Shown one piece after another: positions 2,610-28,275 of a stretch of DNA of 64,000 nt. The DNA is from Lachnospiraceae bacterium (GTDB lineage Bacteria > Bacillota > Clostridia > Lachnospirales > Lachnospiraceae). A program made the translations under genes and the position numbers. The notes under the pieces are model-generated. The model was given only the letters and a program-made list of their open reading frames with translations, had not been told where the DNA came from and did not search any database. The stretch is taken from the NCBI GenBank assembly GCA_017552985.1, contig JAFZNO010000047.1, forward strand, positions 27,478 to 91,477, in the 5' to 3' direction. Within the stretch, counting starts at the first letter, position 1; each line of letters starts with the position of its first letter.

Positions 2610-2907
2610 GATTTATTCCCTTCTGGGAATCGCCATGAAGAGTGGTAATGTGGTCAGCGGTGAGTATCAGACGCTGGAGGCAGTCAAAAAGCGGACGGCC
2701 AATTTGGTATTGGTTTCCGAAGACGCATCCGACAACACAAAGAAGCTTTTTACTGACAAATGTGCTTTTTATGCCGTTCCCGTGTATCAGTACGGGAAGA
2801 AGGAAGATTTAGGCCGGGCAATCGGAAAGGACCTGAGATCTTCAGTGGCGGTGTGCGAGGTTGGATTGGCTACTGCCATAAAAAAGCAACTTGAAATGGA
2901 GAAGTAG
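2593..2907 (+). CDS. ylxQ: L7Ae/L30e-like ribosomal protein family (YlxQ)
   Basis: The 104-residue product has the small alpha/beta L7Ae fold signature: [26 protein letters not shown] near the N-terminus, then [16 protein letters not shown]. Family members bind kink-turn RNA and are found between ylxR and infB in most Firmicutes. An ATG at 2566 is in the same frame, but the ATG at 2593 is chosen because AGGAG at 2581-2585 lies 7 nt upstream and [12 protein letters not shown] matches the usual family start. The gene overlaps the last 17 nt of ylxR and ends 37 nt before infB. Its exact role is unknown. Confidence 0.9.
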
Positions 2908-2944
2908 GGCCCAAGATGAGCTTGGAAAGGAGAAAATAGTTAGG

Positions 2945-5900
2945 ATGGCAAAAATCAGGATACATGAACTCGCAAAAGAGTTAAAGATGGAGAATAAAGA
3001 GCTGTTGCAGTTCCTTGCCGGAAAAGGAATCGAGGGGAAGACGGCATCCAGTGGCCTCGATCCCCAGGAGGAGCAGATGGTGAGGGCAGCCTTTGGCGGC
3101 GCGAAGGAGAAGAGTGCCGACAATGCAAAGAAGGCTGAGCCGGCAGCGAAGGCAGAGGATGCAAAGAAAGCAGAGCCTGAAAAGCCTGTGGAAGTTGCTC
3201 CCAAGAAGGAGGCACCCAAGGCAGAGGAAAGTGCACCCGCACCCAAGGCAGAGGAGCCTAAGGCTGCGCCTGAGAATGCAGCAAAGCCTGCACAGGGAAA
3301 TGCACAGTCTGCAATGCCCAAGAAGAAGAAAACCATCATCATTGTCAACAATCAGCAGAATGCCAGAGGCCAGCAGGGTCAGCGCCCCGGCGCGCCCGCG
3401 CAGCAGGGACGCCCTCAGGGTGGAAACAATGGCAGACCTGGTTTTGGCAATCAGGGATATAATAATGGCAGACCTCAGCAGCAGGCGCCCCGCACGCCCA
3501 TCAAGCCGCTGACCCCTCCGTCTCCCACGCCCAGCGTGCAGATGGTTCCGGGGAACGTTCAGCAGCCTAAGCGCGTGAATCCCGTGCCTGAGAAGAAGGA
3601 AGAGCCGCAGGTAAACGTAGCTCCCGTGAAGGAGACTCCCGCAGTGAACGTTACGCCTGAAGTGACGGTACCTAAGGAGAATAAGACGCCTGCACCTGTA
3701 GCTCCCGCAACGCCGGCAACGCCTGCGGTTCAGGAAAATCGTCCTCAGCAGGGCAATCAGTCCGCAAACCGCGAGGGACAGGTGAGAAGCGGTGCTCCCA
3801 CTGGACCCAGGGATGGTGCGCCTCGTCAGGGCGGCCAGGGACAGTACAATCGCGACGGCCAGGGCGGCTTCAACCGTCAGGGCGGCCAGGGACAGTACAA
3901 CCGCGACGGTCAGGGCGGCTTCAATCGTCAGGGCGGCCAGGGACAGTACAATCGTGATGGTCAGGGCGGCTTCAACCGTCAGGGCGGTCAGGGCAGTTAT
4001 AACCGTGACGGCCAGGGCGGCTTCAACCGTCAGGGCGGTCAAGGCAGTTATAATCGTGACGGTCAGGGCGGCTTCAATCGTCAGGGCGGTCAGGGCGGCT
4101 ATAATCGTGACGGTCAGGGCGGCTTCAACCGTCAGGGCGGCCAAGGTGGTTTTGGCAACCGCGACGGCCAGGGAAGAACTGGTCAGTATCAGGGCGGTAG
4201 CCGTGACGGCCGTGACGGACGTGGTGGCTTCGGCGGCCGTGACGGTCAGGGAAGACCTGGTCAGGGCGGTCAGTTTGGCGGTCGTGACGGTAGACCCGGA
4301 AAGAATAATTTTGGTGGTGATGCCGCTCCCGCAAAGGACATGGAAAAGAAGCGCGAGGAGGACAAGAGAAGGTTCTCCCAGGAGAAGGATAAGAGAAACA
4401 AGAAGGACTACATGTATGAGGAGGACGAGGCAGCGAAGAACAAGCCCGGCCGCTTCATAAAGCCTGAAAAGAAGAAAGAGGAAGTGGTGGAGGAAGTGAT
4501 CAAGGTGATCACCCTGCCCGAGACCATTACCATCAAGGATCTTGCGGATAAGATGAAGCAGCAGCCCGCAGCCCTGATCAAGAAGCTTTTCATGCAGGGT
4601 AAGATCGTGACCGTGAACCAGGAGATTTCTTATGAAGAGGCTGAGGAACTCGCCATGGAATATGAAATCCTCTGCGAGAAGGAAGTCAAGGTAGACGTGA
4701 TCGAAGAACTCCTAAAGGAGGATGAGGAGGACGAGAAGGATCTCAAGGAGAGACCTCCCGTAATCTGCGTTATGGGTCACGTTGACCATGGTAAGACCTC
4801 CCTGCTGGATGCGATCCGTAAGACGAACGTGACGAAGGGCGAGGCAGGCGGAATCACGCAGCACATTGGTGCGTACACCGTTACCTTGGACGGAAGAAAC
4901 ATTACCTTCCTTGACACGCCCGGACATGAAGCATTTACCGCAATGCGTATGCGCGGTGCTAACTCCACCGACATCGCTATTTTGGTGGTGGCTGCGGATG
5001 ACGGCGTAATGCCTCAGACCATCGAGGCAATCAACCATGCAAAGGCAGCAGGCATTGAGATCATCGTTGCCGTAAACAAGATCGATAAGCCCTCCGCAAA
5101 CATCGAGCGCGTTAAGCAGGAGCTCACCGAGTATGAGCTGGTTGCTACCGACTGGGGCGGAAATACTGAGTTTGTTCCCGTGTCCGCAAAATCCGGACAG
5201 GGTATTGAGGATCTGTTGGAGACCATCCTTCTGACCGCTGACATTCTGGAGCTGAAGGCTAATCCGAACAGAAAGGCAAGAGGTCTCGTGATCGAGGCAG
5301 AGCTGGATAAGGGACGCGGTCCCGTTGCAACCGTTCTGGTGCAGAAGGGTACGCTTCACGTTGGCGACTTTATCTCCGCAGGCGCTGCTCACGGTAAGGT
5401 AAGAGCAATGGTGGACGATAAGGGCAGACGCGTGAAGGAGGCAGGGCCTTCCACTCCCGTTGAGATCTTGGGTCTTAGCGACGTTCCCAGCGCAGGCGAG
5501 GTGTTCCTTGCGCATGACAGCGACAAGACGGCGAAGAGCTACGCTGATACTTATCTTGCGCAGAACAAGGAGAAGATGCTTGAGGAGACCAAGAGCAAGA
5601 TGTCCCTGGATGATCTGTTCTCGCAGATCAAGGAGGGTAACCTTAAGGAACTCAACCTGATCGTGAAGGCTGACGTACAGGGTAGCGTGGAGGCCGTGAA
5701 GACTTCCCTTTTGAAGCTCTCTAACGAGGAAGTGGTTGTTAAGTGCATTCACGGCGGCGTAGGTGCCATCAACGAGTCCGACGTGGTACTTGCAAGTGCT
5801 TCCAACGCGATCATCATTGGATTTAACGTGCGTCCTGACGCGGTGGCAAAGGCTACGGCCGAGAGAGAGGGCGTTGACGTTCGTCTCTATAAGGTGATTT

Positions 5901-6250
5901 ACCAGGCAATCGAAGACATCGAGGCAGCCATGAAGGGCATGCTGGATCCCATCTTCGAGGAGAAGGTCATCGGTCATGCAGAGGTTCGTCAGATCTTCCG
6001 CGCGTCCGCGATCGGAAACATTGCAGGTTCCTACGTGCTGGATGGTACGTTCCAGAGAGACTGCAAGGTTCGCATCACCCGTGAGGGCGAGCAGATTTAC
6101 GAAGGCAAGCTGGCTTCCCTGAAGCGCTTCAAGGACGACGTGAAGGAAGTGAAGGCCGGATTCGAGTGCGGTCTCGTATTCGAGGGCTTCGATCAGATGC
6201 AGGAGCTGGATATCGTAGAGGCTTATATCATGGTGGAAGTACCTAGATAG
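2945..6250 (+). CDS. infB: Translation initiation factor IF-2 with extended repeat-rich N-terminus
   Basis: This GTPase brings fMet-tRNA to the 30S subunit and promotes 70S joining. The ATG at 2945 ([14 protein letters not shown]) gives 1101 residues and has GGAGA 11-15 nt upstream; an in-frame ATG at 2891 is unlikely. Domains in order: an IF2 N-terminal helical module (1-50), a Lys/Ala/Glu/Pro-rich linker (50-200), a Gln/Gly/Arg/Asn-rich region (about 150-460) with six exact-length 17-residue repeats (299-400), a second IF2_N module (about 515-570), then the GTPase domain with [14 protein letters not shown] at 611, DTPGHEAF and NKIDKP, and the EF-Tu-like and C-terminal fMet-tRNA-binding domains. 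The catalytic core is intact. The N-terminal region, about 600 residues, is long even for this family. It ends with TAG, showing that TAG is a normal stop here. Confidence 0.97.
3839..4144 (+). repeat. Six tandem 51-bp repeats inside infB
   Basis: Six head-to-tail 51-bp units encode the 17-residue motif [17 protein letters not shown], with the second and third positions varying (GQY, GSY, GGY). Units are closely similar at the DNA level but differ by scattered synonymous changes such as AAC/AAT, GAC/GAT and GGC/GGT. A seventh, diverged copy starts at 4145 and grades into a Gly/Arg/Asp-rich region to about 4320. The unit length preserves the frame. Confidence 0.95.
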
Positions 6251-6772: not shown

Positions 6773-7738
6773 ATGGAATTAGATTTATTAAAAGAGTGTG
6801 CGGACGCGCGGCGCATTGCCATTACGGGACATCAAAAGCCCGACGGCGACTGCGTTGGCGCATGTCTTGCTACGTGGTATTATTTGAAAAACAACCTTAA
6901 GGACGCTGAGGTTCTCACGTTCCTTGAGGAGCCGGATCCCGTGTTTGCGGAGCTGGCGGGTTACGATGAGATCATCACGGATTTCCCGGAGGAAGCTCCG
7001 TTTGACGTGCTGTTCATTTTGGATTGCAATCTGGAACGCACGGGTCTTGCGGCAAAGTATGCGAACGGCGCCGGAAAGATCATCAACGTGGATCACCACG
7101 TGACAAACGCGAACGGCTGCGGGGATCTGAATTACGTGAACCCGAAGGTGGGATCTGCGTGTGAGCTGATCTATGACCTCGTGGAGAAGGACCGGCTGGA
7201 TGCAGAATTGGCCAAGTCCATTTACGTGGGAATGGTGCATGACACGGGCGTGTTCCAGTACGAGAATACGACGCCGGAAACAATGCGCAAGGCGGCGCAC
7301 CTCATCAGTTTTGGCTTTGATTTCTATCGGATCATTCAGGAAACGTTTTATCAGAAGACCTACGTACAGGCGCAGATCATGGGCAGGGCGCTCATGGAGA
7401 GCGTTCGCTTTATGGATGGCAGGTGCATTGTCAGCGTGATCGACCGCAGAACCATGGATTTCTATGGCGTGACCAACCGGGATTTCGAGGGCATTGTCAA
7501 TCAGCTTCGCAACATCAAGGGCGTGAGCTGTGCAATCTTTATGTATGAGACGGACACACTTGAATTCAAGGTGAGTCTGCGCACGGACCAAAGCGTTGAC
7601 GCGGCGAAGGTTGCAGCATATTTTGGCGGCGGCGGGCATGCGCGCGCGGCCGGATGCACCATGAAGGGCACCTTTTATGATTGCGTGAATAACCTGTCGG
7701 CTGAAATCGAGAAGCAGTTGGAGTGGCAGACATGTTGA
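6773..7738 (+). CDS. nrnA: DHH-family oligoribonuclease/pAp phosphatase (NrnA type)
   Basis: NrnA-type enzymes degrade short RNA oligonucleotides and dephosphorylate pAp. The 321-residue product has the DHH domain (GHQKPDGDCVGA at about 19-30, DCNLERTG, and NVDHHVTN containing the DHH triad) and the DHHA1 domain ending with GGGGHARAAG. Metal-binding Asp/His residues are present. The frame is open far upstream across rbfA, but MELDLLKECADARRIAI at 6773 is the usual family start; its Shine-Dalgarno (AAGGGG at 6755-6760) is distant, so a GTG at 6746 cannot be excluded. It overlaps truB by 7 nt. The NrnA-TruB-RibF order is common in Clostridia. Confidence 0.93.
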   Translation: MELDLLKECADARRIAITGHQKPDGDCVGACLATWYYLKNNLKDAEVLTFLEEPDPVFAELAGYDEIITDFPEEAPFDVLFILDCNLERTGLAAKYANGAGKIINVDHHVTNANGCGDLNYVNPKVGSACELIYDLVEKDRLDAELAKSIYVGMVHDTGVFQYENTTPETMRKAAHLISFGFDFYRIIQETFYQKTYVQAQIMGRALMESVRFMDGRCIVSVIDRRTMDFYGVTNRDFEGIVNQLRNIKGVSCAIFMYETDTLEFKVSLRTDQSVDAAKVAAYFGGGGHARAAGCTMKGTFYDCVNNLSAEIEKQLEWQTC

Positions 7739-8781
7739 ATGGAATTATCATTGTCAATAAAGAACCAGGCTTCACGTCGAATGACGTGGTGGCGAAGATG
7801 CGCGGTATCTGCAGGCAAAAGAAGGTTGGCCATACGGGAACGCTGGATCCGGACGCCACGGGCGTTTTGCCCGTATGCCTGGGAACCGGAACCAAGCTCT
7901 GCGACATGCTCACCGATAAGGAAAAAGAGTATGTGACAGAGCTTCTTTTGGGCGTGACGACGGATACGCAGGACATATCGGGAACAGTGCTTTCCGAACA
8001 GCCCGTGGACGTGACGGAGGATCAGGTGCGTGAAGCGATCATGAGCTTCCTGGGTGCCTATGATCAGATTCCGCCCATGTACAGCGCGCTGAAGGTGAAT
8101 GGAAAGAAGCTGTATGAACTGGCCAGGGAAGGGAAGGAAATCGAACGCAAGGCAAGACGCGTGGAGATCCTGGAACTGGAAATCCTGGAGATGAAGCTTC
8201 CCGTGGTAAAAATGAGGGTTGGCTGCACGAAGGGAACCTATATCCGCACGCTCTGTTTTGACATAGGCGTAAAGCTTGGGTGCGGCGGTACCATGAAATC
8301 CCTGGTGAGAACCAAGGTGGGGAGATTTACGCTGGAGCAGGCGCATACCCTCGCGGAGATCGAGCAGATCCGGGACGGAGGGCTGGAACTAGACGTGGAT
8401 CGGACTGCGGGACGTGATATTGTAACGGGGCTGGATGCTCAAAAGAATGCGGTTGCGACTGGACTTGAGAGGGTTGTGATTCCTACGGAGGCTGCATTTT
8501 CGGATTTGCGAAGAATTTGTGTAAAGCCTGAGGCGGACAAGCTTTTGCTGAACGGAAATACGATACCGGCGGACAAGCTTTTGGAGAATGGTGAAGCGAT
8601 GCCGTTTGACGCGCTTTCATTAAACGGTAACATAATGTCGACGGGTAAGAATTTAATGACGGTCGCTTCGGTTTCAGATGGTGAGCGAGTTCGAATCAGC
8701 ACCTCTGACGGCAGGTTCCTTGGCGTATATGAATTTATCGAGGCGGGAGGAAGCTTTCGGCCCGTGAAAATGTTTTTGTAA
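7732..8781 (+). CDS. truB: tRNA pseudouridine(55) synthase TruB
   Basis: TruB converts U55 of tRNA to pseudouridine. The 349-residue product starts MLNGIIIVNKEPGFTSNDVV and contains the catalytic motif GHTGTLDPDATGVLPVCLG (around residues 34-52, catalytic Asp in LDPDA), PPMYSALKVNGKKLYELAR, and CTKGTYIRTLCFDIG. An in-frame GTG at 7723 exists; the ATG at 7732 is preferred with GGAG at 7720-7723. After about residue 235 the C-terminal region departs from the family: a segment at about 8530-8640 contains a degenerate 12-residue repeat around the sequence ADKLLLNGN, which enlarges the PUA-like tail. The last residues (RFLGVYEF) return to a normal ending. Confidence 0.95.
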   Translation: MLNGIIIVNKEPGFTSNDVVAKMRGICRQKKVGHTGTLDPDATGVLPVCLGTGTKLCDMLTDKEKEYVTELLLGVTTDTQDISGTVLSEQPVDVTEDQVREAIMSFLGAYDQIPPMYSALKVNGKKLYELAREGKEIERKARRVEILELEILEMKLPVVKMRVGCTKGTYIRTLCFDIGVKLGCGGTMKSLVRTKVGRFTLEQAHTLAEIEQIRDGGLELDVDRTAGRDIVTGLDAQKNAVATGLERVVIPTEAAFSDLRRICVKPEADKLLLNGNTIPADKLLENGEAMPFDALSLNGNIMSTGKNLMTVASVSDGERVRISTSDGRFLGVYEFIEAGGSFRPVKMFL

Positions 8782-8829
8782 AGTAATTAACTTGAATGTA
8801 GTTTTGAGTTGACTTAATCATTGTAATAC

Positions 8830-9070
8830 TGGGTATATATAGTATTTTGGGAAGCATTTACCCATGGTAAAATATGATTGTGGGTATATATTTATTATTT
8901 GAGCCGCTTTACCCAGCTGTTTTGGAAGAAATTGGGTAAATAAGCAGGGATTAAATGATTATACCCAATATTCCTTAAAAATGTTGGGTAAATCATGGAG
9001 AAAACGTGTTTTATACCCAATAATGTCTGAACGGGTGGGTATTCTGCGCACAAAGGAAGGTATATACCCA
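8830..9070. repeat. Array 1 of phased TGGGTA-N23-TACCCA elements (five units)
   Basis: The 359-bp truB-ribF gap holds five 35-bp elements at 8830-8864, 8881-8915, 8933-8967, 8985-9019 and 9036-9070. Each begins TGGGTA and ends TACCCA, always 29 bp start to start. The gaps between elements are 16, 17, 17 and 16 bp, so the period is 51-52 bp. Interiors and gaps are not conserved in sequence. An asymmetry (TATAT beside one end, TTT beside the other) orients the units as + + - - -. No ORF or promoter of note was seen here. A second array with the same geometry is at 24214-24402. No known element family was recognised. Confidence 0.93.
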
Positions 9071-9140
9071 ACAGGGTTGCTCTGGAAGTCGCGCGGGCGT
9101 GGCAAAATCAGACAAAAGCACAAAAAAGTGAGGACTTGTT

Positions 9141-10061
9141 TTGGAAATCATTTCAGAGAGCGTTGATTTTCAATTGAATAGAGAGACGGCCATTGCGATC
9201 GGCAAGTTCGATGGCGTGCACGTGGGACACAGGCGCCTTTTGGAGGAAATCCTGGAAAAGAAGAAGGACGGATTTGAGGCCTGCGTGTTCACGTTTGACG
9301 TTTCGCCGGCTGTTTTGTTTGGCTTCGGCGACGGAAAGGTTTTGTCTACCCGCGAGGAGAAACGAAGGATCTTTAAGGAGCTTGGCATTGACGTGCTGGT
9401 GGAGTTCCCGATGACGCATCAGACAGCAGCCATTCCGGCAGAGGATTTTGCACGCAGATATCTTTCCGGCGCACTGTGCGGCAGATTTATTGCAGCAGGT
9501 GACGATCTTTCCTTTGGACAATATGGCAAGGGAGACGCAAAGCTCCTGCAGAGTCTTTCCTCTGAGTTGGAATTTGAAGTGAAAACGATCTCAAAGGTAG
9601 AGATCGAAGGGATCCCCGCCAGCTCAACTTACGTACGCTCTCTGGTAGAGGCGGGAAAAATGGAAGAGGCGTCGACGTTCCTTGGCGAGCCGTATTGCAT
9701 TGACGGAACGGTGGTGCATGGAAGGCATTTGGGGCACGAACTTGGTTTCCCCACGATTAATATACTCCCGCAGGAAGATAAGCTTCTTCCGCCCTTTGGC
9801 GTTTATGCATCCAAGGTCCGGATCGATGGGAAGCTTTACTGCGGCATTACCAATATTGGCAGAAAGCCGACCGTGGACGGGAATGCCGGTTTGACGGGCG
9901 TGGAAACCAATCTCTTTGATTTTGACGGTGATCTGTATGGACGGGAAGTGCAGGTGTATCTTCATCACTTCCAGCGCCCGGAGCGGAAATTTGAGAACGT
10001 GGACGCATTGAAGCGACAGATTGCGTTAGACGTGGAGAAATGCAAGGAATTACTGGAATAA
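9141..10061 (+). CDS. ribF: Bifunctional riboflavin kinase/FAD synthetase RibF
   Basis: RibF phosphorylates riboflavin to FMN and adenylylates it to FAD. The 306-residue product has the N-terminal nucleotidyltransferase domain (AIGKFDGVHVGHRRLLEE with the GxxHxGH-type motif at about residues 22-33, and SSTYVRSLVEAG) and the C-terminal riboflavin kinase domain (GTVVHGRHLGHELGFPTINI at about 188-207, GVYASKV, and ETNLFDFDGDLYG). The start is TTG at 9141: an in-frame stop lies at 9129-9131, no ATG is available, and GAGGA at 9130-9134 is 6 nt upstream. It follows repeat array 1, which separates it from truB; it may be transcribed from truB or from an unseen promoter in the array region. Confidence 0.94.
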   Translation: MEIISESVDFQLNRETAIAIGKFDGVHVGHRRLLEEILEKKKDGFEACVFTFDVSPAVLFGFGDGKVLSTREEKRRIFKELGIDVLVEFPMTHQTAAIPAEDFARRYLSGALCGRFIAAGDDLSFGQYGKGDAKLLQSLSSELEFEVKTISKVEIEGIPASSTYVRSLVEAGKMEEASTFLGEPYCIDGTVVHGRHLGHELGFPTINILPQEDKLLPPFGVYASKVRIDGKLYCGITNIGRKPTVDGNAGLTGVETNLFDFDGDLYGREVQVYLHHFQRPERKFENVDALKRQIALDVEKCKELLE

Positions 10062-22596: not shown

Positions 22597-23979
22597 ATGG
22601 AACAATTGTCCTTATTTGATCAGTCGCAAGGGTTTAATGGAATACAAGAGATGAATGGCGCCCCCGCTGAAGTGGAAAGCAGCGGAGGCGTGGATTTTAC
22701 GCAGCCCTTGGCAAACCGTCTGCGCCCGAGATGCCTTGATGATTTCGTGGGCCAGGAGCATTTGCTTGGAAAAGGGAAGATGCTGAGGCAGCTGATCGAA
22801 CGCGATCAGATTTCTTCCATGATCTTTTGGGGGCCGCCCGGCGTGGGTAAAACAACCCTTGCCAGCATCATTGCGGGACAGACAAAAAGCGCCTTTATCA
22901 ATTTCAGTGCCGTGACCAGCGGCATCAAAGAGATCAAGGAAGTCATGCAACAGGCTGAAAACGACAGGCGAAGGGGCCGCCGGACAGTGCTTTTCGTGGA
23001 CGAGATCCATCGCTTTAATCGCGCCCAGCAGGACGCCTTTTTGCCTTACGTGGAAAAGGGAAGCATCGTGCTGATCGGCGCAACGACGGAGAATCCGTCC
23101 TTCGAGGTCAACGGGGCACTTTTGTCCAGGTGTAAGGTGTTTGTGTTAAAGGAGCTCACGGAGGAGAATCTTTGCAGGCTTCTTCACAGGGCACTCACGG
23201 CGCCGGAAGGTTTTGGGCGGCAGGGCGTTGCCATGACGGATGACCAGATCCGTGCGGTCGCGGCGTTTGCAAACGGGGACGCGCGCACGGCCCTGAATAC
23301 TTTGGAGATGGCAGTCTTAAACAGCCAGATCCAACCTGACGGCAGCATGGTCGTGACAAATGAGGGACTGGAGCAATGCGTTAGCAGAAAGTCCCTGTTA
23401 TATGATAAATCAGGGGAAGAGCATTACAACATGATCTCCGCGCTGCATAAGTCCATGCGCAATTCGGATCCGGACGCGGCCATCTATTGGATGCTTCGCA
23501 TGCTGGAGGGCGGTGAAAATCCCTTGTATATTGCAAGGAGACTGATCCGTTTTGCGAGCGAGGACGTGGGCATGGCGGATCCGAAAGCGCTGGAGCTTGC
23601 CGTAAACGTCTATCAGGCCTGTCATTTCCTGGGAATGCCGGAGTGTGACGTGCATCTGACGCATGCCGTGACGTACCTTGCGATGGCGCCGAAATCTAAC
23701 GCATGTTACGTGGCATGTGAGGAGGCAAAGCGGGATATCAAGGAAAAACCCGCGGAACCCGTGCCCCTGCAGATCCGGAACGCCGTGACAAAACTCATGG
23801 CAGATCTGGATTATGGAAAAGGCTATGAATATGCCCACAATGCCGAGGAGAAACTAACCAAGATGAAGTGCCTGCCGGAAAGCCTACGGGATCGCGAGTA
23901 TTATCGCCCGACGGAGCAGGGTGCGGAGGCGGCCGTGAAGGAGCGCCTGGAAGAGATCAAGGCCTGGAAGGCAAAGTAA
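22597..23979 (+). CDS. rarA: Replication-associated recombination protein A (RarA/MgsA AAA+ ATPase)
   Basis: RarA acts at stalled replication forks. The 460-residue product contains LANRLRPRCLDDFVGQEHLLGKGKMLRQLIE, Walker A GPPGVGKTTLA (about residues 84-94), Walker B TVLFVDEIHRFNRAQQDAFLPYVE, sensor GATTENPSFEVN and the C-terminal MgsA oligomerisation domain (AIYWMLRMLEGGENPLYIARRLIRFASEDVGMADP; VTYLAMAPKSNACYVA). The first 30 residues are a low-complexity extension. It ends AWKAK, and the DNA for those last codons is the first unit of a 41-bp tandem repeat that runs past the stop. Confidence 0.95.
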   Translation: MEQLSLFDQSQGFNGIQEMNGAPAEVESSGGVDFTQPLANRLRPRCLDDFVGQEHLLGKGKMLRQLIERDQISSMIFWGPPGVGKTTLASIIAGQTKSAFINFSAVTSGIKEIKEVMQQAENDRRRGRRTVLFVDEIHRFNRAQQDAFLPYVEKGSIVLIGATTENPSFEVNGALLSRCKVFVLKELTEENLCRLLHRALTAPEGFGRQGVAMTDDQIRAVAAFANGDARTALNTLEMAVLNSQIQPDGSMVVTNEGLEQCVSRKSLLYDKSGEEHYNMISALHKSMRNSDPDAAIYWMLRMLEGGENPLYIARRLIRFASEDVGMADPKALELAVNVYQACHFLGMPECDVHLTHAVTYLAMAPKSNACYVACEEAKRDIKEKPAEPVPLQIRNAVTKLMADLDYGKGYEYAHNAEEKLTKMKCLPESLRDREYYRPTEQGAEAAVKERLEEIKAWKAK

Positions 23980-24168
23980 GCAAGTACCTTTGAGTGGCTA
24001 AGACCTGGAAGGCGCAGTAAGAAAATGCCTTTGAGCAGTCAAGATCTGGAAGGCGCAGTAAGAAAATGCCTTTGAGCAGTCAAGATCTGGAAGGCGCAGT
24101 AAGAAAATGCCTTTGAGTGGCCAAGGCCAGGAGGGCATGGTAGCAGATTCCTTGTGACGTCATACTTG
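23964..24168 (+). repeat. 41-bp tandem repeat spanning the rarA stop codon
   Basis: Units begin with CTGGAAGGC at 23964, 24005, 24046 and 24087, exactly 41 bp apart; a decayed fifth unit starts at 24128. Units 2 and 3 are identical. Unit 1 includes the last four sense codons and TAA of rarA, so later units repeat the gene's end, including TAA. Each unit could form a small AAGGC/GCCTT hairpin. Confidence 0.92.
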
Positions 24169-24213: not shown

Positions 24214-24402
24214 TGGGTATATATCGCATGGATGAAATAAAATACCCAATGAAATTGGACTTGTGGGTATAGTTCCAATACTTTGCCTGTTTTACCCAGA
24301 TGAAAAGCGTAAATTGGGTAAAACATGAAATGTTTATACCAAAATACCCACGGGATATTAAGGGTATGGGTATATTCTCTAAGACAGTTTCATTTTTACC
24401 CA
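24214..24402. repeat. Array 2 of phased TGGGTA-N23/24-TACCCA elements (four units)
   Basis: Four elements lie at 24214-24248, 24264-24298, 24315-24350 and 24367-24402, of 35, 35, 36 and 36 bp. All begin TGGGTA and end TACCCA, with gaps of 15, 16 and 16 bp (period 50-52). The sequence-specific asymmetry orients them + + - +. Together with the 41-bp repeats it fills the 552-bp gap between rarA and the next gene. Short ORFs through this stretch are spurious. No promoter was identified with confidence. Confidence 0.92.
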
Positions 24403-24531
24403 TGGAATTATGTCATGCAGATGAAGAACAGAGGACGATAAGTAGAAAATTCGCGCATGGCGTGAAAAGATACGAAACATGTTATTAAGTGAATTGGAAA
24501 ATTGGGGATAAAGGATACGGGAGAGGGAGTT

Positions 24532-25452
24532 ATGGCGGAAAAGAAAGAAGTATTTTGGCATTTGCCGGGACTTTGTTATTTCAGATTGCTGAATCAGGTG
24601 CTGATCAATACGATGAAGGATTATCCTGACAAGTTCCGGGATGGGTATCGCATCGGTTCCGTGTACGGGACGATCCCCGGGGCCATTTGGAATGGCGGGC
24701 GGGCCGTTTTTGGCATCAGCAACAAGGCGGAGATCGAGAGAGTGATCCATACCTATAATCAGTATGGCATTCCGGCGCGTTTTACCTGGTCAAATTCCCT
24801 GCTGGAAGAAAAGCACGTATATGACACGTACTGCAACATGATCATGAAGGTTGCGGACAACGGACTCAATCAGGCAATCGTGAACAGCCCGGCTTTGGAA
24901 GAGTATATCCGCCGGGAATATCCGAATTATAAGCTGATCTCTTCGACGACAAAGCGCATGACGGACTTTGATCGGCTGAAGGAGGAAGTGGCAAAGAATT
25001 ACTTCCTTGTGGTGCTTGATTATGACTTGAACCGCAATGAGGAAGTGATCAAGCAGCTGGAGCCCGTTGCGGATAAGATCGAGATTTTGGTCAACGAGAT
25101 CTGTTATCCCGGATGCCCGAAGCGTGCGGAGCATTATCGCGAGGAATCCAGGTCGCAGCTGGAGTTTGACAACCGGACAACCTTCCGTTGCCCGAACAAT
25201 TCCAGGGACAATCGCACCTTTGAAGAGTGCATGAAGCGTCCGGCGTTCATGTCCACGGAGGAAGTGGATCGCTACATTGAACGCGGCTTTTCGAATTTCA
25301 AGATTGTCGGCAGGGGACTTCCGCAGCAGTTTGTACTCGATTCGTACGTCTACTTCCTTGCGAAGGAGGAGGCGAGGGACTTTGTGCGTAAGCGCATCAC
25401 GGGAACCATGGAGCAGTTGATGGCAGCCCAGCGCGCGCAAATGCGGCGCTAA
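24532..25452 (+). CDS. Conserved protein with U32-peptidase-like Cys motif, function unknown
   Basis: The 306-residue soluble protein was not firmly identified. EILVNEICYPGCPKRAEHYREE (about residues 183-204) resembles the Cys-containing segment of U32 (collagenase-like, TIM-barrel) proteins. The order of segments (GGRAVFGISNKAEIERVIHTYNQYGIPARFTWSNS; KYFLVVLDYDLNR-like strand; STEEVDRYIERGFSNFKIVGRG) also fits an (alpha/beta) barrel, with further Cys in TFRCPNN and FEECMKRP. Known U32 relatives act in hydroxylation of tRNA or ubiquinone or are called peptidases; which applies here is unclear. The ATG at 24532 has GAGAGGGAG 3-11 nt upstream. The last codons form the start of a 51-bp tandem repeat. 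Confidence 0.7.
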   Translation: MAEKKEVFWHLPGLCYFRLLNQVLINTMKDYPDKFRDGYRIGSVYGTIPGAIWNGGRAVFGISNKAEIERVIHTYNQYGIPARFTWSNSLLEEKHVYDTYCNMIMKVADNGLNQAIVNSPALEEYIRREYPNYKLISSTTKRMTDFDRLKEEVAKNYFLVVLDYDLNRNEEVIKQLEPVADKIEILVNEICYPGCPKRAEHYREESRSQLEFDNRTTFRCPNNSRDNRTFEECMKRPAFMSTEEVDRYIERGFSNFKIVGRGLPQQFVLDSYVYFLAKEEARDFVRKRITGTMEQLMAAQRAQMRR

Positions 25453-28012: not shown

Positions 28013-28275
28013 CGGGTGAAAAAGAATGGTTTTCACCTTGGGAAATGCGGAGAACGGAGAGAGTACTTTTCCGAAAGGGATCACAGAGAGGGCTTGTCAT
28101 TGGCTGAAAGCTTGCCCGGTCTTGGGAGAAGGAAGTGCATCCGGGAGCTGACCTGGGGAAGCTTAGTATCCAGGTACGTATGGGCGCGTTAAGCCGTCAA
28201 GGGAAGGGGCATGCCCCTTAAGTAGAGTGGAACCGCGGAACAATTCGTCTCTTAGATGGATTGTTCCTTTTTGTT
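28013..28275 (+). promoter_or_regulatory. T-box riboswitch for cysS (tRNA-Cys sensing)
   Basis: The leader has the stem I elements AGAGAGTA (28048-28055) and the distal AGAGAGG ... TGGCTGAAAGC pair. A candidate specifier, TGC (Cys), sits at 28136-28138 within GAAGTGCATCC. The T-box AGTAGAGTGGAACCGCGG is at 28221-28238. Its bulge reads TGGA; the final A would pair with a U discriminator, as tRNA-Cys has. A terminator follows: a 13-bp stem (28237-28249 with 28255-28267) and a T run. Uncharged tRNA-Cys would favour antitermination. The pairing logic is established for T-boxes; the specifier placement is my inference. Confidence 0.92.

Follow-up and report, generated by a model that had tools for sequence, protein, structure and literature searches.

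Phased arrays in the window

The window analysed here is a 64,000 nucleotide (nt) stretch of contig JAFZNO010000047.1 (positions 27,478 to 91,477) of the Lachnospiraceae bacterium assembly GCA_017552985.1, a gut-bacterial genome termed G000. It displays two phased arrays of the hexamer TGGGTA and its inverted form TACCCA, and the subject of this analysis is the relation of such arrays to a family of nuclease-like genes, many of which have phased hexamer arrays of their own. Array 1 (8830..9070, no strand assigned) fills most of the interval between a truB-like gene (7723..8781, + strand), which ends 48 bp before it, and a ribF-like gene (9141..10061, + strand), which starts 70 bp after it. Both gene names come from reading of the sequence; the ribF-like gene displays a GxFDGxHxGH motif, from which we take it to be ribF. 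The truB-like gene is matched in all 37 genomes of the genus set, G000 itself counted.

Array 1 consists of five TGGGTA-N23-TACCCA units, i.e. ten hexamers, all of them perfect, with unit starts at 8830, 8881, 8933, 8985 and 9036. The inner gap is 23 bp in every unit, the gaps between units are 16, 17, 17 and 16 bp and the step is 51–52 bp. This confirms the five 35-bp elements with 16–17 bp gaps that were reported in a first-pass annotation of the same DNA. The orientation + + - - - given there stands for units 1–4 and fails for unit 5, which is unpolarised, both of its inner ends being T. Polarity is a tendency in these elements: among 50 units from G000 and the related genome G011, the fraction with complementary first inner bases is 0.20, vs 0.49 expected. 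Array 1 was also rightly separated from the CRISPR (clustered regularly interspaced short palindromic repeats) arrays. The sole direct-repeat family reported at 8600–9200 is 12 nt long and has three copies, and the identical 20–50 bp direct repeats with unique spacers that mark a CRISPR are absent from the array.

Array 2 (24214..24402, no strand assigned) has the same hexamer in four units (eight hexamers) with inner gaps of 23, 23, 24 and 24 bp; the first-pass count of five units in array 1 was real and these four further units had been overlooked. Array 2 is downstream of a rarA/mgsA-like AAA+ ATPase gene (22597..23979, + strand; PF12002 and PF16193) and is followed by a gene (24502..25452, + strand) with a weak match to peptidase U32 (PF01136, E-value 3.3e-05). 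The pattern TGGGTA-N21–27-TACCCA occurs nine times in the window, vs a mean of 0.01 and a largest value of 1 in 100 dinucleotide shuffles.

TGGGTA arrays in the genome and its relatives

The whole of G000 contains 44 TGGGTA units, vs three for a control pattern read backward. The three-hexamer pattern gives 35 forward and 32 reverse matches and its control gives none on either strand. The view that the elements form a dispersed family, which a genome-wide search could have overturned by finding the motif pair at random frequency, therefore holds, with the spacing fixed as described. An Rfam family covering the elements, which would also have told against the first-pass view, is not found at the gathering threshold. 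At least 12 arrays of three or more hexamers are spread over 10 contigs (C26, C40, C47, C52, C53, C78 twice, C79, C89, C127 and C137 twice). Genes beside them include truB/ribF, rarA, spoVAD, ispG, a serpin gene, traX-like and gltD-like genes, a GH67 gene and one for a beta-CASP protein. Copying of units between loci is not visible among these 44 units and 12 arrays; the best similarity between loci is 0.74 and the largest value in 20 shuffled sets is 0.78.

Among 61 relative genomes, including G000, the exact three-hexamer pattern is found only in G000 and G011, and its reversed control has one match, in G018. A search of 84,980 species with a four-hexamer pattern gives 27 stretches, all from Lachnospiraceae (records titled Acetatifactor, Lachnospiraceae or Butyrivibrio). 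Across genomes the inner gaps are 22–25 bp, with 23 bp in 104 of 137, and two are 17 bp; outer gaps are 15–18 bp, and further ones of 34–36 bp (12 cases), 46–47 bp (three) and 56 bp (one) are found in some genomes. G011 has orthologues of two G000 arrays, at the truB-ribF and serpin loci, with differing unit numbers and diverged spacers. Its truB-ribF array is shorter than array 1 and has three exact hexamers. The genome that comes next after G000 by TruB score, G018, has no TGGGTA-type hexamer between truB and ribF. Decay of the G011 arrays for want of the gene was considered and dropped, a hand count having given no clear difference from G000.

Variant forms are also present. In RGIG4653 (L046–L068) a fixed three-unit form recurs at many places, e.g. 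L049:4804-4959, with units 51 and then 70 bp apart and A/T tracts inside. A second motif, TATGTAAAC, is found beside or between the TGGGTA units of the RGIG4230 and SIG328 genomes (L054:4750-4907, L065:504-743 and L044:2302-2457). Only one IMG/VR contig (L070) has an array, and it was rejected as a viral carrier, as its array and the sizes of its flanking open reading frames (ORFs) match SIG328 DNA in L044.

A nuclease-like protein beside the arrays

Comparison of the genes near arrays across genomes shows one protein that adjoins arrays in G000, RGIG4653 and SIG328. The G000 gene (C137:50191-50973) comes directly after comEC and a TGGGTA array of its own. The predicted protein has two domains, the first consisting of a helix, three strands and a helix, and the second a PD-(D/E)XK nuclease domain that resembles the homing endonuclease I-Bth0305I. 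The family displays the nuclease core fold and the conserved acidic residues of the PD-(D/E)XK superfamily, and residues of active-site type are invariant in all 47 aligned family rows. No family in Pfam, NCBIfam or PHROGs covers the protein as a whole, and PHROGs gives weak nuclease matches for some members. PDC-S68 profiles of PADLOC match the C-terminal nuclease domain in 47 of 47 members (best E-value 8.4e-33). A sequence search of solved structures with the protein gives E-values of 0.24 or worse, and a Foldseek search of PDB gives nothing below 0.001. Matches of the N-terminal domain to prefoldin, Rad50 and flagellar rods look like common helix arrangements and were discarded.

A profile of the protein is positive in 10 of 11 array-bearing genomes, with 1–8 copies; in one genome the match is only a fragment at a contig end. 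It is also positive in 10 of 35 genomes of the same genus that have no TGGGTA matches. In three of these ten (G004, G006 and G018) the gene is accompanied by an array of another hexamer; in others no gene-side array is found or the gene is partial. The family is present in 84 of 392 genomes and 38 of 173 genera sampled from the order Lachnospirales. In a sample of the phylum 15 of 398 genomes are positive, with full-length matches only in five genomes of the same bacterial family; the other ten match mainly the nuclease part, mostly inside longer reading frames. Plasmid records matched by the TGGGTA-linked protein number five, all over the nuclease part only, and two phage records are matched by the ACTTGCCT-linked protein, with coverage of 53% and 43%.

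Paralogs with their own upstream arrays

Regions around the family genes were scanned blindly for phased inverted hexamers and scored per region. The scan shows arrays of many different hexamers beside the genes. All seven G000 paralogs have a phased inverted-hexamer array directly upstream, and the hexamer is different in each: TGGGTA, TATGAC, ACTTGCCT, TACCGC, TACGGG, CGCCGT and GTAGTC. The upstream score for 95 loci is at least 5 in 49, 4 in 10, 3 in six and at most 2 in 30; with a looser cut, 59 of the 95 have an upstream array. All of 1,900 shuffles score at most 2. Downstream regions score at least 5 in four and exactly 4 in another four of 94 cases. Control regions upstream of other genes score at most 2 in 67 of 68 cases, the exception being the window array upstream of ribF.

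The 95 loci exclude L140 and L168 (no gene called, partial), L169, L170 and L173 (partial, fused or broken), L142 (start unclear), L184 and L185 (the same places as L154 and L167) and three more with less than 250 bp upstream. Sets A and B are loci returned by searches, set C was picked by hand from the listing for the order and set D completes G000. Scores of at least 5 are found in 18 of 45 (A), 14 of 27 (B), 14 of 20 (C) and 3 of 3 (D). Presence of an array was not a selection criterion, except that set A started from array-linked genes and takes in the loci that led to the family. The 49 arrays give 41 distinct best 6-letter words, and shifted registers of one motif (e.g. ACCGTA/AACCGT) make the number of real motifs smaller.

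At 26 loci there is a conserved gene upstream in the same direction, and the array fills the gap between it and the family gene. The upstream genes are of comEC type (7), guaA type (6), RNA methyltransferase (5), carboxylase (4) and rpsI (4), names that rest on one or two members per cluster. The comEC-type gene is directly upstream at L132, L152, L158, L163, L174, L241 and L246, where the hexamers are of different classes.

A tree of 47 paralogs displays two main clades, with mostly G-rich hexamers in the first (TGGGTA, TGGGCA, CGGGGC, GGGTAC). Near relatives in the tree share hexamers, i.e. ACTTGCCT, TACCGCC, CGGGGC and CCGACT, several of the hexamer labels in the tree being weak. Over 46 loci the correlation of protein score with hexamer match is weak at 0.068, a value reached by 64 of 2,000 permutations, and the excess is in pairs above 300 bits. 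Thus hexamers seem to turn over quickly; co-evolution of protein and hexamer and inheritance of the whole locus are not separated by this correlation.

Spacing and conservation of the hexamers

Distances between hexamers of the same orientation cluster at about 42, 53, 62, 72 and 82 bp. In 49 arrays, 442 of 443 distances from 35 to 85 bp are within 41–43, 50–55, 60–65, 71–76 or 81–84 bp and one is 48 bp, where distances from one array are not independent of each other. A coarse period scan has its maximum at 10–10.25 bp (vector strength 0.81), with 0.79 at 9.5 and 10.5 bp and 0.63 at 12 bp. The peak is shallow, and its position indicates a step of about one helical turn. Steps of about 10 bp suggest that the hexamers are on one face of duplex DNA. 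The helical phasing proposed for array 1 in the first-pass annotation holds more widely than the window alone could show, as it extends to arrays of other hexamers.

Three pairs of orthologous arrays show changes in 0–8% of hexamer bases vs 24–39% of spacer bases. In the ACTTGCCT arrays of G011 and G000, 1 of 144 or 0 of 138 hexamer bases are changed, vs 111 of 458 spacer bases (no gap) and 30 of 849 in the gene. The TACCGC arrays have 3 of 60 and 5 of 66 hexamer changes vs 75 of 204 in spacers, and the CGGGGC arrays 0 of 30 and 1 of 36 vs 40 of 103; array lengths differ in these two pairs and many of their spacer columns are gaps. Retention of the hexamers between freely changing spacers is the strongest evidence for a putative site-binding function, and the earlier suggestion of a protein-binding array is supported by inference.

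Scattered arrays

Arrays dispersed between genes are known for four of the hexamers, and with exceptions these lie in genomes that hold the cognate gene. TACCGC arrays are found in G018 (C19 and C73), in short form in G011 (C12 and C60) and once in G338, a genome examined for arrays and not for the cognate gene. The short G011 arrays (L294 and L295) have scan scores under 4 and rest on exact pattern matches. G006, a one-contig genome, has CGGGGC arrays at eight places, and one of the eight is gene-linked. The TACGGG pattern has 28 matches on each strand in G000 and 98 and 100 in G011. G018 has no match, and among the subset of G018 paralogs examined none is TACGGG-linked. Many TACGGG arrays are at contig ends; as two ends may belong to a single array, the locus count is uncertain.

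Three of the G006 arrays are inside one repeat with inverted ends, and the longest pairwise matches are 92–93% identical. Copies with long inverted ends and a central CGGGGC array are at L258:2252-3003, L259:2208-3114 and L261:2213-3428. In G011 the same end module, about 95 bp long, borders the array at five of the 10 TACGGG places fetched, and it is also found at one G000 place. Thus larger repeats can carry arrays along when they are copied. Elsewhere, orthologous arrays are shared by G000 and G011, or by G006 and G066.

Proposed function and alternatives

Several lines of evidence give good support to the pairing of nuclease-like genes with phased arrays of their own. It was unforeseen in the first-pass annotation that array 1 is tied to a family whose other members pair with other hexamers. 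The window array is probably a cluster of cognate binding sites for the chromosomal two-domain nuclease-like protein encoded on C137, with autoregulation and satellite sites in an organisation like that of REP-RAYT systems (repetitive extragenic palindromes with their associated transposase genes). Among the parts of this proposal, direct binding of the protein to its array is predicted and likely, and autoregulation and satellite behaviour of the arrays are plausible. The N-terminal domain would bind the hexamers as dimers or larger oligomers along one DNA face, with a binding repeat of about five turns and sometimes four, six, seven or eight. The nuclease-like gene may be autoregulated by the array upstream of it, which would also concentrate the protein there, and the scattered arrays, including the window array, would be satellite sites of the protein. 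The cell may keep the scattered arrays as tolerated selfish copies, as a store of nuclease or as a means of chromosome organisation.

A wider reading, put forward tentatively, treats gene and array as a general class. Each nuclease of a diversifying chromosomal family would read its own hexamer and form a filament along one face of the array. The arrays would then be operator, depot and propagating satellite, and possibly a sensor that frees the nuclease upon loss or invasion of chromosomal DNA.

The binding-site proposal has to be weighed against the arrays being operators only, where the protein would repress its own gene, the nuclease domain would be dead or irrelevant and scattered arrays would regulate their neighbours. 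The position of the arrays is in agreement with this. They are directly upstream of the family genes, the called ORF starting a median of 64 bp (range -53 to 488) after the last hexamer, and by hand tally nine of the 12 G000 arrays are between co-directional genes, the other three being unclear or divergent. Against it, the active-site-type residues are invariant in all family rows, and no common theme is seen among the genes beside the scattered TGGGTA arrays of G000. In addition, three of the eight G006 arrays separate reading frames that converge, a setting in which a promoter is not expected, although two of the three rest on ORFs of 101–110 residues. An operator role alone is thus rather unlikely.

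It is less likely still that the arrays are mainly selfish or hitch-hiking repeats, spread in miniature inverted-repeat elements, with the nuclease gene incidental. The inverted-end repeat of G006 and the end module of G011 are what such spread would give. Against it are the strong constraint on gene-linked hexamers, the orthology of other arrays and the lack of spacers common to different TGGGTA loci in G000.

The weakest alternative, that transcribed hexamer pairs form hairpin chains which stabilise transcripts or bind a protein, is very improbable: inverted hexamers are able to pair, array RNA folds better than shuffles on both strands (z -5.57 and -3.65) and single offsets exceed the expected complementarity, most in a small third group (14 units), but there is no consistent excess beside the hexamers in the two larger groups (50 units in G000/G011 and 48 in the RGIG4653 group), hexamer distances move in steps of about 10 bp, and an Rfam search at the gathering threshold finds nothing in the arrays. 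The two alternative RNA hairpin chains of the first-pass annotation are not supported, the quantised spacing pointing to duplex DNA.

Comparison with known systems

REP-RAYT systems, or REPtrons, have been described as a nuclease-type gene beside its own repeat class, with several gene-repeat pairs per genome and repeats dispersed between genes (PMC6006769, PMC3686654). The family described here is alike in organisation: seven of seven G000 paralogs have hexamers of their own, scattered arrays are seen for four hexamers, and an upstream array is present at about half of the loci examined. The enzyme is different, a PD-(D/E)XK protein here and a Y1 tyrosine transposase there. The Y1 transposase (PF01797) has no match in G000, G018 and G061 and is present in four of seven array-bearing genomes searched. 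The repeat is also different, being a phased hexamer array with free spacers rather than a GT[AG]G-footed hairpin; just inside the hexamers of G000 and G011 there is no excess of complementarity. The family is not filed with REP-RAYT because enzyme and repeat both differ.

Likeness to I-Bth0305I (EDxHD, Vsr-like) is a resemblance of nuclease domains; no intron, target site or cleavage is established for the present family, in which the nuclease domain is fused to an N-terminal domain and the array upstream is private. EDxHD homing endonucleases cut alleles without their gene and copy themselves into them. The PDC-S68 candidate defence proteins, which we take to be helicase-like, have profiles of about 1,200 positions, whereas here the matched nuclease domain follows a short N-terminal domain. 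STAR, BOX and BIME repeats are also intergenic and dispersed; their constant parts are short, and some form arrays in which the spacers vary. We know of no PD-(D/E)XK nuclease paired with its own hexamer among them. A literature search (PMC) did not find the pairing of a nuclease family with private phased arrays described.

If the binding-site proposal is correct, the family (seven members in G000 alone) would be a large natural collection of proteins with related DNA-binding domains that read dozens of short words. The word is written beside each gene, and the recognition code of a new domain could be read from sequence; orthogonal array-binding modules would be on offer. It would also be a second, independently built nuclease with a private dispersed repeat, which bears on the question of why bacteria keep REP-like elements.

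Other features of the window

A 41-bp tandem repeat at 24000–24157, with three copies in register, stops just before array 2. The long ORF at 2891–6250 is similar to initiation factor 2, a name that comes from reading of its sequence, and its N-terminal half has a repeat region rich in Gly, Gln, Asn and Arg. The Rfam matches in the window are three tRNAs and a T-box leader, the latter at 28041–28255 (117.5 bits).
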